Assembly: GCF_018598555.1 (NCBI RefSeq)
Contig: NZ_JAHEWN010000004.1
Span: 124,001 to 188,000, forward strand
DNA from: Curtobacterium aurantiacum
GTDB lineage: Bacteria > Actinomycetota > Actinomycetes > Actinomycetales > Microbacteriaceae
DNA length: 64,000 nt
Reading direction: 5' to 3'
A program made the position numbers and the translations under genes. This document shows, piece by piece, positions 59,045-64,000 of the stretch. Position 1 is the first letter of the stretch; every line of letters starts with the position of its first letter. The notes beneath the pieces are model-generated. The model had not been told where the DNA came from and made no database searches. It saw only the letters and a list, made by a program, of their open reading frames with translations.

Positions 59045-60304
<1,260 letters not shown>

Positions 60305-60308
60305 GCCG

Positions 60309-61568
60309 GTGCGCTTCTTCATCCCGATCCTGATCGGGCGGATCCTCCGCGCCCTCGCCCGTGCGCGGGGCGGCGGGTCCGCGTACCCGGGGTTCATCGT
60401 CCTGAAGCTCGTGCCGGACTTCCTGCAGCACGTGACGAAGCAGTTCCCGAACGGCGTCGTCTTCGTGCTCGGCTCGAACGGCAAGTCGACGACGACGCAC
60501 ATGATCTCCGACATCGTGCGTGCCCACGGGCTCCGTGTCTTCACGAACCCGTCCGGCGCGAACCTCCCGCAGGGCATCGCGTCGGCACTGCTGTCCGAGG
60601 TCTCGCTGACCGGTCGCCTCAAGGCGGACATCGGCATCCTCGAGGTCGACGAGGCCTTCGCGGTCGAGCTCGCCGGCATCCTGTCGCCCTCGACGGTGAC
60701 GATGCTCAACGTGCAGGTCGACCAGCTGTACCGGTTCTTCGAGACCGAGCGCGTGGCCACGATGATGCTCGACACCGCCGCACTGTCGACGGCGAACGTC
60801 ATCACGAACCACGACGACCAGTTCCTCGACGGCTACACCGGCACCCCCGGGCAGCGCGTCCTGCGGTTCGGCGCGAGCGACGAGGTCATCGCGGCGGCAC
60901 CGAACGGCCTGCAGAACGCCGACTCGTTCGACGCCGGTGACCGTGCTCAGCACACCGTCGACGCCGAGGTCGTGGCCCACACGGGCGACGGCGCGACGAT
61001 CCGCTTCGACGGCACCGAGATCCCGGTCCGTCTGCCCGCCCGCGGCCTGCACTACGCGGTCGACGCGGCTGCGGCCACCGCGACGGCGAGTGCGGCCCTC
61101 GGAGCGCAGTTCCGCGCCGAGGCCGTGACGAAGGCGTTCGGCACGATGAAGCCGGCGTACGGCCGTGGCGAGCGACTGCCCATCGCGGGTGAGTCCGCCG
61201 AGTTCACGATGTTCAAGAACGCCGCGAGCCTGCAGCTCAACCTCGACGCCCTGCCGGACCAGCCCGAGCAGGTCCTCATGGCGATCGACGAGGGCACGCC
61301 GGACATCTCGTGGATCTACGACATCGACTTCTCGAAGCTCGACCACGTGGACGTCGTCTCCGGTGACAAGGCCTGGCAGATCGCGATCGCGCTCGAGCAC
61401 GCCGGTGTCCGCATCGGTCGGGTCGAACCCGACGTCGAGGCAGCCATCAAGCACATGGAGCAGCTCGGCTCGACGACGCGCGGGACGAAGAACTTCATCG
61501 TCAACTACGAGATCATGATGATCGCCCGCAAGGCCCTCGGCCACCCGGACATGGAGAAGACCGCATGA
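60309..61568 (+). CDS. murT: MurT-like Mur ligase (DUF1727), zinc-ribbon cysteines missing
   Basis: 419 residues from GTG 60309. P-loop VLGSNGKSTTTHMI, Mur-ligase motif ILEVDEAFA and VQVDQLYRFFE, and the C-terminal DUF1727 region with MAIDEGTPDISWIYDID. Normal MurT proteins carry a four-cysteine zinc ribbon inserted in the middle domain and join GatD to convert lipid II D-Glu to isoglutamine. Here the protein has no cysteine, and the stretch after VITNHDDQFLDGYTG is short and ribbon-free. Translationally coupled to the next gene. Confidence 0.85.
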   Translation: MRFFIPILIGRILRALARARGGGSAYPGFIVLKLVPDFLQHVTKQFPNGVVFVLGSNGKSTTTHMISDIVRAHGLRVFTNPSGANLPQGIASALLSEVSLTGRLKADIGILEVDEAFAVELAGILSPSTVTMLNVQVDQLYRFFETERVATMMLDTAALSTANVITNHDDQFLDGYTGTPGQRVLRFGASDEVIAAAPNGLQNADSFDAGDRAQHTVDAEVVAHTGDGATIRFDGTEIPVRLPARGLHYAVDAAAATATASAALGAQFRAEAVTKAFGTMKPAYGRGERLPIAGESAEFTMFKNAASLQLNLDALPDQPEQVLMAIDEGTPDISWIYDIDFSKLDHVDVVSGDKAWQIAIALEHAGVRIGRVEPDVEAAIKHMEQLGSTTRGTKNFIVNYEIMMIARKALGHPDMEKTA

Positions 61569-62338
61569 CGGCCGACCGGCTGACCATCCTGCACGTCTAC
61601 CCCCGGCAGATGGGCGTCTCGGGCGACCGCGGCAACGTCGCGGCCCTCGTGCGCCGTGCGGCCGCCGCGGACATCGACACACAGGTCCTCGAGTACGCGC
61701 CGGGTGACGAGCTGCCCACCGCGGCCGACGTCGTCGTGATCGGCAACGGTCCGCTCAGCGCGATGCGGTCCCTGGCTGACGACGTCACGCGCATCGGCGG
61801 CGCGCTCCGGGCGTTCGCGAACGACGGTGTGCCGGTCGTCGCCGTCGGCGGTGGTTTCGACCTCGCGACGAACGAGGTCGTGCCGACCGAGGGTGCTCCG
61901 GTCGCGGGGTTCGGGGTGTTCGACGCCCGTGCCGTCCGCGGCGCCGAGCGTCGGGTGAACTACTTCGTGCTCGAGACCCGGTACCCGCTGCTCCCCGGAG
62001 CACCGAAGCGTCTCGCCGGGTTCGAGGACCACGCCACCACGATCGAGCTCGCGCCCGGGGTCAGCCCGTTCGCCGACGTCGTGTCCGGTGGTGGCAACCA
62101 GGCGGGAGCCCCGGTCGAGGGTGCGATCGTCGGGACGTCGTTCGGCACGCACACGCAGGGCCCGATCCTGCCGCTCAACCCGCAGCTGACCGACGGCGTC
62201 CTCGCCGCGGCCACCGCACGGCTGGGCCGGGCGTACGCGCCGGACGCGGAGCAGACGGCGACCATCGACCGCTACGCACGTGAAGCGCGCGCCACGGTCG
62301 ACCGCTACGTCGACAAGGCGTTCAAGCGCATCGCCTGA
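61565..62338 (+). CDS. gatD: GatD-like class I amidotransferase without catalytic Cys/His
   Basis: 257 residues, overlapping murT by four bases (ATGA). The fold is recognisable: ILHVYPRQMGVSGDRGNVAAL, VVIGNGPLS, and the ending THTQGPILPLNPQLTDGVL. In active GatD the nucleophile lies in a (V/I)CGGYQ elbow and the His in a YLHGPLL motif. Here these read VVAVGGGFDLA and GTHTQGPIL: Gly replaces Cys, Gln replaces His, and the protein contains no cysteine at all. Glutaminase activity is therefore not expected. A strong terminator follows. Confidence 0.85.
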   Translation: MTADRLTILHVYPRQMGVSGDRGNVAALVRRAAAADIDTQVLEYAPGDELPTAADVVVIGNGPLSAMRSLADDVTRIGGALRAFANDGVPVVAVGGGFDLATNEVVPTEGAPVAGFGVFDARAVRGAERRVNYFVLETRYPLLPGAPKRLAGFEDHATTIELAPGVSPFADVVSGGGNQAGAPVEGAIVGTSFGTHTQGPILPLNPQLTDGVLAAATARLGRAYAPDAEQTATIDRYAREARATVDRYVDKAFKRIA

Positions 62339-62465: not shown

Positions 62466-62915
62466 ATGCACCACAACAAACTCGTCCTCGCCCTGGTCGG
62501 TGGACTCATCGTGACCCTGACCACTGCCGGCACGGTCGCCCAGACGGCTCCGGCTGAGGCCGCGACGACGCGGATCAGCTCCGCCTGCAGTTCGGTGCCG
62601 ACGACCACGACCGAGTCGGACGGCGTCCCGGGGCCGATCTTCTACAAGCGACTCCAGTGCATGGCCAGCAGGGCCGGGTACTCAGGTGATATCGATGGTC
62701 GTATGACGTCGCCCGCTTGGTTCTTCGTCGCGAAGCGCCTCGCGGTCGGCGGGTACTACCAGTCGGGGAACTTCTACGGAACTGAGCACCCCCTGACCAT
62801 CGCAGCGCTGCAGCGGTGGGCGGCCGCCCACGACCGCTACAGCGGTCCCATCGACGGGGTGTGGGGACCGAACAGCTATCGGGGCGCCGCCTGGGCGCTG
62901 AACCGCGAGTTCTAG
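62466..62915 (+). CDS. Secreted peptidoglycan-binding-like protein
   Basis: 149 residues with AAAGGAGG directly upstream. A Sec signal ends near APAEAAT (~residue 33). The mature part resembles two degenerate peptidoglycan-binding repeats: GYSGDIDGRMTSPAWFFVAKRLA and RYSGPIDGVWGPNSYRGAAWAL, each with the D/I-DG turn of PG_binding_1. It also has two Cys. No catalytic domain is present. Confidence 0.72.
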   Translation: MHHNKLVLALVGGLIVTLTTAGTVAQTAPAEAATTRISSACSSVPTTTTESDGVPGPIFYKRLQCMASRAGYSGDIDGRMTSPAWFFVAKRLAVGGYYQSGNFYGTEHPLTIAALQRWAAAHDRYSGPIDGVWGPNSYRGAAWALNREF

Positions 62916-62970: not shown

Positions 62971-63063
62971 CGTTGCTCGTTTCGGATGCATGCGGTCCTC
63001 TGGCATTTCAGTCGCCGGCCGTGACAGGATGGGCCGGTCAGCACCATGGGGGGGGAATTGACG

Positions 63064-64000
63064 ATGGCGAAGATCCACGGGAACGATCCGACCGGCTACT
63101 CGTACAGCGCGGCGGACGCACTCAAATCGGCTTCGACGGCGCTCGCGTCGGCGATCGGCGGCCAGTCCGGGTCGCGGTCGTCGTCGGTGACGACCGCGAG
63201 TGCGGAGTTCCGGGGGTACTTCTCCGAGGTCTTCGCCGACAACGCCGACATCGGAGCGCGCAGCGCGACCAAGCTCGTCGAGTCGTTGCAGAGCCTGTCC
63301 GGGTTCGTGCAGGAGCTCCGCGACGCCGCGAAGGACGAGGACGACCGCCGGAAGCAGGCGAAGGCGTGGGACGCCCGCAAGCGTGAACGCGAGGAGAACC
63401 TCCTCGTCGCTGCCGGGCACGAGGTCTCGACGTGGTTCGGCGGGGGCGACGACCCGAAGCCGCCGGAGCCCGAGCCGGAGCCGCGACTGCAGGCGGAGGA
63501 GGTCAACGTCAAGGGGCGGGAGATCCCCGCGGGTGGAGGGACCAGCGGTGGGACGTCGTCGGCCGTCCCCGAAGACCTCCGCTCCTTCGAGGCGAACACT
63601 CGCACCTTCGACGCCGACCTGTCGGGTGCCGTCTCCACGTTCCGCAACGCCCTGAGCGACTACGAGGCCGAGTGCAACCCCTGCTGGGGCACGCTGAACG
63701 CCCAGTCGCTGCTCACCGCCGTGAACGACTGGCTCGCCGCGAACGGGCAGGACGCGGACTGGGCGGGCACCGTCGCCACGCAGTTCGAGGCCGCCGGTGG
63801 TGGTGCCGGGCCCGCGACACTGTCGGACGCTGCGATCGCGGCGGCCCTGTCCGCGGCGGGGATCGACGCCGGCCGTGACGACTTCACCATCGGGCCGTTC
63901 TCGGCGATGGGGACGCCCCCGACGAACGGGTTCGCCGACGATCCCGTCAACACCGCCACGGGCAACTTCCTGGAGCCCGAGACCGACCTGTCGTTCGCCG
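63064..64000 (+). CDS. RHS-type polymorphic toxin, N-terminal part (3' end outside window)
   Basis: Open frame of 312 codons from ATG 63064 (GGGGGG run upstream) to the window edge. The first ~115 residues are helical (SYSAADALKSASTALASAIGG, LRDAAKDEDDRRKQAKAWDA), reminiscent of secreted WXG/LXG-type N-termini. A Pro/Glu-rich hinge follows (PKPPEPEPEPR). A second helical domain leads into DPVNTATGNFLEPETDLSF, the typical entry into the RHS/YD-repeat region. No Sec signal. The toxin tip and immunity gene must lie to the right. Confidence 0.75.
   Translation, partial: MAKIHGNDPTGYSYSAADALKSASTALASAIGGQSGSRSSSVTTASAEFRGYFSEVFADNADIGARSATKLVESLQSLSGFVQELRDAAKDEDDRRKQAKAWDARKREREENLLVAAGHEVSTWFGGGDDPKPPEPEPEPRLQAEEVNVKGREIPAGGGTSGGTSSAVPEDLRSFEANTRTFDADLSGAVSTFRNALSDYEAECNPCWGTLNAQSLLTAVNDWLAANGQDADWAGTVATQFEAAGGGAGPATLSDAAIAAALSAAGIDAGRDDFTIGPFSAMGTPPTNGFADDPVNTATGNFLEPETDLSFA

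Follow-up and report, generated by a model that had tools for sequence, protein, structure and literature searches.

A MurT/GatD-like pair with a disarmed glutaminase subunit behind sigA, a candidate bridge ligase of the Microbacteriaceae cell wall

The Mur ligases MurC-F and the pseudomurein ligases pMurC/pMurE share the Mur fold and acyl-phosphate chemistry. In B-type cell walls the α-carboxyl of D-Glu is used by the bridge; group B peptidoglycan is a long-standing taxonomic marker, and among Bacillota such walls occur in Erysipelothrix and Eubacterium limosum. The MurT/GatD lipid II isoglutaminyl synthase of Staphylococcus aureus is described (PMC3266927) as a complex in which MurT requires GatD regardless of conditions, including with the GatD variant C94G. 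This variant abolished glutamine use and left MurT working with NH3 at pH 8.5; at pH 7.5 neither NH3 nor NH4Cl was used by MurT/GatD. Here we analysed a 64,000-nucleotide stretch of Curtobacterium aurantiacum (contig NZ_JAHEWN010000004.1, positions 124,001 to 188,000, hereafter the window), which carries a murT-like and a gatD-like gene directly behind sigA. Pfam domains alone would suggest an isoglutaminyl synthase, although the glutaminase residues are missing. Instead, we hold with guarded confidence that the pair is probably a glutaminase-dead ligase complex, joining an amino acid to the D-Glu α-carboxyl for the B-type bridge.

To place the window pair, residues were counted in 263 two-gene loci, reduced to 229 with distinct MurT stretches. 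These comprised 66 canonical pairs (Cys-bearing and presumed active), 144 D-type pairs of the window kind and 16 pairs of a second lineage, THNA/TGNA; three truncated GatDs were counted apart, two of those genomes being Cys-less in longer loci (the third is locus L234 of genome G114). Of the D-type loci, 68 came from named records and 76 from others, all 76 in Microbacteriaceae; three named records are titled as other groups (two Auritidibacter metagenome-assembled genomes and one Cellulomonadaceae) and are presumed mislabelled. The nucleophile Cys of GatD was found in 66/66 canonical pairs, in 0/144 D-type pairs and in 0/16 of the THNA/TGNA lineage, so that the Cys loss which the initial annotation had read from this one pair proved to be lineage-wide when family pairs were aligned with Cys-bearing homologues. 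The window GatD has no Cys in its 257 residues, and Gly95 and Gln198, counted from the alignment with S. aureus GatD, stand in for the nucleophile and the catalytic His. The His is present in 91 of the D-type GatDs, with other residues in 50 and a gap in three. A Tyr which in Streptococcus pneumoniae GatD plugs the ammonia passage (PMC6085368) was retained in 66/66 canonical pairs and in 0/144 D-type pairs (Asn in 108, Ser in 20, Thr in 10 and six others), and the MurT Arg facing this gate followed the same distribution, 66/66 against 0/144.

The synthetase side of MurT was conserved. Residues K59, N85, E112, D114, E115, N134, R142 and R286 were invariant in the 145 MurTs fitting the D-type profile best, Asn85 being the acceptor-carboxylate residue; by PMC6085368 together with our alignment, the eight serve phosphate, Mg, acceptor-carboxylate and adenine binding, the loop and the hinge. 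The acidic motif in particular is the Mg2+/acceptor-carboxylate site of known MurT (PMC6085368), and the RGGGSAxPG stretch near the N-terminus does not differ from that of canonical pairs. The MurT Asp that serves as third member of the GatD triad in S. aureus was kept in 144/144 D-type and 66/66 canonical pairs and in 0/16 of the THNA/TGNA lineage. Taken together, the counts indicate a joint loss of the glutaminase nucleophile and the ammonia gate, alongside conservation of the synthetase, and glutamine-dependent amidation by the window pair is predicted to be absent. The adenine pocket departs from this conservation, with Tyr in 123/144 and Asp in 140/144 D-type MurTs against Asn in 56/66 and 65/66 canonical ones at the two positions; S. 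aureus MurT N267Y is inactive (PMC6113224), and the Asn-to-Asp change in the purine pocket could mean that a different nucleotide is used. The zinc ribbon, whose absence had been read as part of the same loss, is indeed missing from the window MurT (no Cys in 419 residues). However, it was rejected as part of the pattern, since CxxC motifs are also missing in 55/66 canonical MurTs, and two are kept in 14/16 of the other Cys-less lineage; a Cys tetrad is found in only some Actinobacteria (PMC6085368).

The ratio of nonsynonymous to synonymous substitution rates (dN/dS) of both window genes against five Curtobacterium loci was 0.07-0.18, which indicates that both genes are kept by purifying selection; within Curtobacterium it was 0.07-0.20. 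These low ratios and the same loss in 144/144 D-type loci rule out a pseudogene or a chance loss. The window MurT matched Mur_ligase_M and MurT_C, and GatD matched GATase_3, all over the Pfam cut-offs; the similarity of GatD to S. aureus GatD reached an E-value of 3e-15 in phmmer. In contrast, NCBIfam equivalog scores were far under their cut-offs (MurT 91 against 800 in two models; GatD 77 against 450 and 58 against 400). The AlphaFold models were confident, with a mean predicted local distance difference test score of 89.9 and a predicted template modelling (TM) score of 0.90 for MurT, and 94.2 and 0.92 for GatD. By E-value, the best PDB folds for the MurT model were MurT chains of MurT/GatD complexes, followed by pseudomurein ligases and MurF; TM-scores over the 50 PDB chains listed ranged from 0.39 to 0.67, with MurT chains at 0.49-0.67 and amino-acid-adding Mur ligases up to 0.67. 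A second MurT was not found in the genome itself, where MurT_C (PF08353) gives one match only, and amidation by another MurT of this genome was rejected on that ground; three further GATase_3 matches are present (L003-L005), two of them over the cut-off. The coordinates of the locus and its residues are collected in Table 1.

Table 1 Genes and diagnostic residues of the sigA-linked pair in the window
Feature	Position	Strand	Evidence
sigA/rpoD-like sigma factor gene	59045..60304	+	NCBIfam sigma model 767 against cut-off 582; RpoD_Cterm 371 against 354
murT-like gene (MurT-like Mur ligase, 419 residues, 0 Cys, no CxxC zinc ribbon)	60309..61568	+	PF08245 and PF08353 over cut-off
gatD-like gene (GatD-like class I glutaminase domain protein, 257 residues, 0 Cys)	61565..62338	+	PF07685 over cut-off
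Gly95 replacing nucleophile Cys (S. aureus GatD Cys94)	61847..61849	+	alignment
Gln198 replacing catalytic His (S. aureus GatD His189)	62156..62158	+	alignment
Ser19 replacing ammonia-passage plug Tyr (S. pneumoniae GatD Tyr30)	61619..61621	+	alignment
P-loop GSNGKSTT, MurT residues 55-62	60471..60494	+	K59 in 145/145 MurTs fitting D-type profile best
Acidic motif EVDE, MurT residues 112-115	60642..60653	+	E112, D114, E115 in 145/145
Altered adenine pocket, Tyr249 and Asp252 against two Asn in canonical MurT	61053..61064	+	alignment
Asp332, counterpart of S. aureus MurT Asp349 (third GatD triad member there)	61302..61304	+	alignment

The window GatD was matched in 89 of 120 Microbacteriaceae genomes. 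The D-type clade of a 133-row MurT tree held 66 rows, all Microbacteriaceae, with a Shimodaira-Hasegawa-like approximate likelihood ratio test support of 100, and the Cys-less pairs required two changes; in a smaller, careful tree (eight D-type rows) the clade support was 100/100. Among 296 genomes of the class, D-type MurT scores of 549-634 bits occurred only in Microbacteriaceae, the next-best scores being at most 402 bits in families f6 and f17, with the Cys present in eight genomes examined of nine. In other families of the order, Cys and His were kept in all 48 pairs examined. Scanning named genomes yielded 80 loci. A GatD was identified in all but that of Naasia lichenicola (L154), and the nucleophile Cys was present in 0/79. 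Cys-less pairs occurred in Agromyces, Rathayibacter, Clavibacter, Cryobacterium, Herbiconiux, Pseudoclavibacter, Leifsonia, Agreia, Subtercola, Plantibacter, Microbacterium, Frigoribacterium, Curtobacterium and other named genera, and the Curtobacterium loci (L213-L217) had the same motifs as the window pair.

The second Cys-less lineage has the elbow FTHNALEVLG, keeps the zinc ribbon in MurT and has lost the triad Asp. It was found in seven Microbacteriaceae loci (L113, L115-L118, L254 and L269), and FTGNA-like relatives occurred in another class of the phylum (L288-L295), which we guess to be the Coriobacteriia. THNA pairs sit at this sigA position in species other than the D-type ones, some of them congeneric, and the genera g37, g42, g48 and g67 switched between the two Cys-less types. 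In the careful tree canonical pairs separated the two Cys-less lineages, so that the Cys was lost at least twice, or once with regain. A census of 149 Microbacteriaceae genomes gave 97 D-type, eight THNA, 21 with a CofE-like protein and no MurT, three FGTS/FNNA, 14 canonical only and six with neither module; classes were assigned by hand from MurT scores, GatD being read in many and not all. MurT was matched in 122 of the 149 and in none of the other 27; one D-type genome was partial and three also had a canonical copy. The idea that a MurT was simply missed in the MurT-less genomes was rejected: the canonical profile gave at most 61 bits in 20/27 searched, and these matches were taken as other Mur ligases. 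In genome G068 (L103, C1:2566819-2568225), the MurT match lies in two pieces, one with a TGA, possibly a frameshift or a decaying copy.

Cys loss went together with the place behind sigA. Over the 229 distinct loci, 146 Cys-less pairs were sigA-linked, seven unlinked and seven not judgeable, whereas no Cys-bearing pair was linked, 36/36 judged being unlinked and 30 not judgeable (Fisher p 5e-32 over judged loci). The distance from sigA to the 146 linked pairs had a median of 11 bases and was at most 70 in 139. None of the canonical pairs of Microbacteriaceae examined was behind sigA. The objection that B-type relatives retain the full Cys/His site, which the initial annotation had raised against itself, holds in part, since some family genomes have a canonical MurT only, as detailed below.

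In genomes without the pair, the same place was taken by another protein. In 13 of 20 MurT-less genomes examined, the gene directly behind sigA encoded a member of the F420 glutamyl-ligase family of about 232 residues, and in a 14th (G020) a transaminase lay between sigA and this CofE-like gene. Matches to Pfam F420_ligase (PF01996) above 300 bits were found in 21/27 MurT-less genomes, in two genomes with a third Cys-less pair type and in 0/105 with a D-type or THNA pair (Fisher p 3e-15). Six genera held both states, pair and CofE-like (g7, g9, g57, g58, g76 and g84). On a SigA tree the state labels were scattered, and supported branches forced at least seven changes for D-type and at least six for CofE-like; this species tree from SigA alone is weakly resolved, its bootstrap not settled and its labels hardly clustered. 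Folylpolyglutamate synthases have the Mur-ligase fold. F420 glutamyl ligases, which are not homologous to them, carry out the same glutamate-adding reaction (PMC10861534). The CofE-like protein is probably a ligase, and the repeated presence of a ligase-family protein in the same place speaks for ligation by the replaced pair too, with an amino acid as the unit added. A sugar-transfer associated ATP-grasp gene lies in L229 (3271-3957, minus strand; PF14397, the domain being tested in this locus only), and homologues were seen near sigA in nine of 13 CofE-like loci, four THNA loci and one D-type genome among the loci compared (further loci L220, L221, L223, L231, L232, L233, L237 and L240; L115, L116, L118 and L269; L101).

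Genes for wall amino acids accompanied both modules. One or two alanine-racemase-like genes followed the pair or the CofE-like gene, usually no more than 1-3 kb away; in loci over 9 kb they occurred in 26/96 D-type, 0/27 canonical and 0/6 of the other Cys-less lineage. In all, 54 loci had such genes, some of the same genome and three of them sigA loci without MurT; racemases were sought only among open reading frames passing a codon-composition filter, and misses are likely. A diaminobutyrate transaminase over the ectB cut-off was present between sigA and the CofE-like gene in G020 and behind the gatD-like gene, next to a racemase, in L187, and in none of the other loci examined. The exchange with the CofE-like protein, the racemases and the diaminobutyrate transaminase together make an amino acid a better candidate for the amine than ammonia, plausibly for the B-type bridge. 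In the window's genome, bridge formation of the FemX type was rejected, there being no FemAB-type transferase (PF02388) match at E 0.01.

Tandem alanine-racemase-like genes were seen by position in L158 (8079-9128 and 9128-10048, minus strand), L183 (8010-9206 and 9097-9816, minus strand) and L208 (8052-8696 and 8618-9736, plus strand). Their decay is complementary: the long copy keeps the pyridoxal phosphate (PLP) Lys (VKANAYGHG type), and the short copy has Arg at this site (RADAYGHG type) and keeps a VSYGYTY stretch, which we take to be the catalytic Tyr motif of alanine racemase. From these motifs, the two copies look like a putative heterodimer with one composite active site. A split racemase in the window genome was rejected, because two tandem full-length racemases were found, elsewhere in that genome.

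Under the preferred reading, the window MurT would use a nucleoside triphosphate to phosphorylate a carboxylate, the step proposed for canonical MurT on the D-Glu α-carboxyl of lipid II. The nucleophile that then attacks the acyl phosphate would be an amino-acid amine rather than ammonia. GatD would no longer cleave glutamine and would persist as an obligatory partner holding MurT in shape; it may also help admit or bind the amino acid. Since S. aureus C94G is the same change as that in the window, a natural Cys-to-Gly GatD can support MurT with an outside amine. The most likely product would be a D-Glu(α)-amino acid bond carrying the B-type bridge (D-Orn, D-Dab, D-Lys or Gly, by genus; Dab, diaminobutyrate). 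The identities of the amine and of the acceptor, and what GatD does, are inferred here. B-type walls are reported for the Microbacteriaceae (PMC10978784); several members have Dab or D-Orn (PMC4156110; PMC10757982), and Gly-D-Glu together with D-Ala-D-Dab is reported in one (PMC4156110). Our search of one literature library found no paper on the bridge ligase of group B peptidoglycan, none joining MurT, GatD and Microbacteriaceae, and nothing on CofE in peptidoglycan; Microbacteriaceae are not mentioned in PMC6085368.

Several observations weigh against this reading. The window's own locus has neither a racemase nor a transaminase neighbour, and the racemases near other pairs might just be the usual source of D-Ala in those genera. 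Of the 149 family genomes, 14 have canonical MurT only (GatD Cys read in 13 of the 14), three hold both kinds of pair (two seen via GatD, one via MurT score) and six have neither module; if all are B-type, other solutions exist, and the last six indicate that not every family member carries out the step in this way. A Cys-less lineage occurs in another class (8/296 genomes), and, should this be the Coriobacteriia, the wall of Atopobium is listed as A4alpha and not B-type (PMC11382707). As for the CofE-like protein, a lower-scoring homologue (149 bits) is present at another site in the D-type genome G338, and the gene adjoins a third Cys-less pair type, FGTS, in the family genomes G053 and G317 (L110 and L260), the order in L260 of G317 being sigA, CofE-like, MurT, GatD. 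In the other class, a CofE-like gene lies beside the Cys-less pair of L291. The two modules are thus not always alternatives, and the adjoining genes suggest two ligation steps there. Furthermore, the CofE-like protein scored 30 against a cut-off of 181 bits with the F420 CofE equivalog and had no PDB match, and its chemistry is therefore unproven. The proposal of the initial annotation that the acceptor of the activated carboxyl is an amino acid is accordingly strengthened by the locus evidence (CofE-like substitution, racemases, diaminobutyrate transaminase) and weakened by the canonical-only and module-less genomes; what it had said of the overlapping genes (61565 against 61568), their selection, and the P-loop, acidic motif and C-terminal domain of MurT was borne out.

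The conserved catalytic residues and RGGGSAxPG stretch of MurT, shared with canonical pairs, would also suit an enzyme that makes D-isoglutamine in lipid II from free NH3/NH4+, much as S. aureus C94G amidates with NH3 at pH 8.5 (PMC3266927). Such an ammonia-dependent amidase seems unlikely: the gate Tyr and MurT gate Arg are lost in 144/144 D-type pairs with no sign of a new ammonia route, S. aureus uses neither NH3 nor NH4Cl at pH 7.5 (PMC3266927), and Gly-D-Glu is reported in one family member (PMC4156110). It also leaves the CofE-like exchange and the racemase and diaminobutyrate transaminase neighbours unexplained, and the α-carboxyl of B-type walls is taken by the bridge. Those neighbours fit wall amino acids, and with Asn85 for the acceptor carboxylate in 145/145 and a retained MurT-type N-terminus they speak against an amino-acid ligase acting on another carboxylate, whether in a polymer or cofactor outside the bridge or at another stem position. 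We consider that alternative rather improbable too, though the known context of the CofE family is a cofactor, both modules are missing from some relatives, and the second Cys-less lineage also occurs in another class. A non-catalytic or regulatory complex with a structural role beside sigA would account for a GatD that is no glutaminase of the known kind and for the replaced adenine-pocket Asn, given that S. aureus N267Y is inactive (PMC6113224). It is nonetheless very improbable, as no variation was seen in the MurT residues checked for phosphate, Mg and acceptor binding, dN/dS is low, and an enzyme-family protein substitutes in other genomes.

The preferred reading, in which the pair forms the D-Glu α-carboxyl bond of the bridge, can be extended tentatively to the locus as a whole. 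The spot behind sigA may be the bridge-ligase locus of the B-type wall, filled by three separately recruited ligases (D-type MurT/GatD, THNA MurT/GatD and the CofE-like protein), usually one at a time. Racemases, some with an active site split over two copies, and in places the diaminobutyrate transaminase would supply the D-diamino acid. The former glutaminase would have become a subunit serving the amine of the amino acid, and Asp in place of Asn in the adenine pocket may mark a nucleotide switch. We regard this extension as possible but somewhat doubtful. If true, the locus supplies the enzyme of the group B bridge, an ammonia-using complex became an amino-acid ligase when one of its subunits was disarmed, and the substitution of unrelated ligases for one another in closely related species amounts to a natural experiment.

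In the window, sigA and the two genes of the pair form one run, the murT-like gene starting with GTG four bases past the sigA stop and overlapping the gatD-like gene by four bases. By eye, a short secreted-looking protein follows 3' of the pair (62470-62915), and 63046-64000 holds the first part of a large protein, similar to the N-terminus of polymorphic/RHS-type proteins. Plasmid carriage was rejected, as only matches of 78-86 bases were found, in six records, five in transposase genes and one without annotation.

Compared with the MurT/GatD isoglutaminyl synthase of S. aureus, S. pneumoniae, S. pyogenes and M. tuberculosis, the window pair has the same adjacent or overlapping genes, MurT central and C-terminal domains, GATase_3 GatD, P-loop, Mg/acceptor residues and fold. 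Unlike that synthase, it lacks the nucleophile Cys, the His, the gate Tyr and the MurT gate Arg, and has a changed adenine pocket, sigA linkage and equivalog scores below the cut-offs. The features of a Mur-type ligase, namely the P-loop, Mg/acceptor residues and hinge Arg, are present and invariant in 145/145; MurC-F and pMurC/pMurE, however, have an N-terminal uridine diphosphate (UDP)-binding domain that is absent in MurT (as partly described in PMC6085368), and the window MurT, unlike them, has GatD as a partner. Pseudomurein archaea have MurT homologues, some of them (MurT-like) without GatD (PMC11915815), whereas in the window pair GatD is kept but disarmed. The CofE/FbiB-type F420 γ-glutamyl ligase family (PF01996), a distant member of which takes the same sigA-linked place in pair-less genomes, showed no sequence relation to MurT or GatD.

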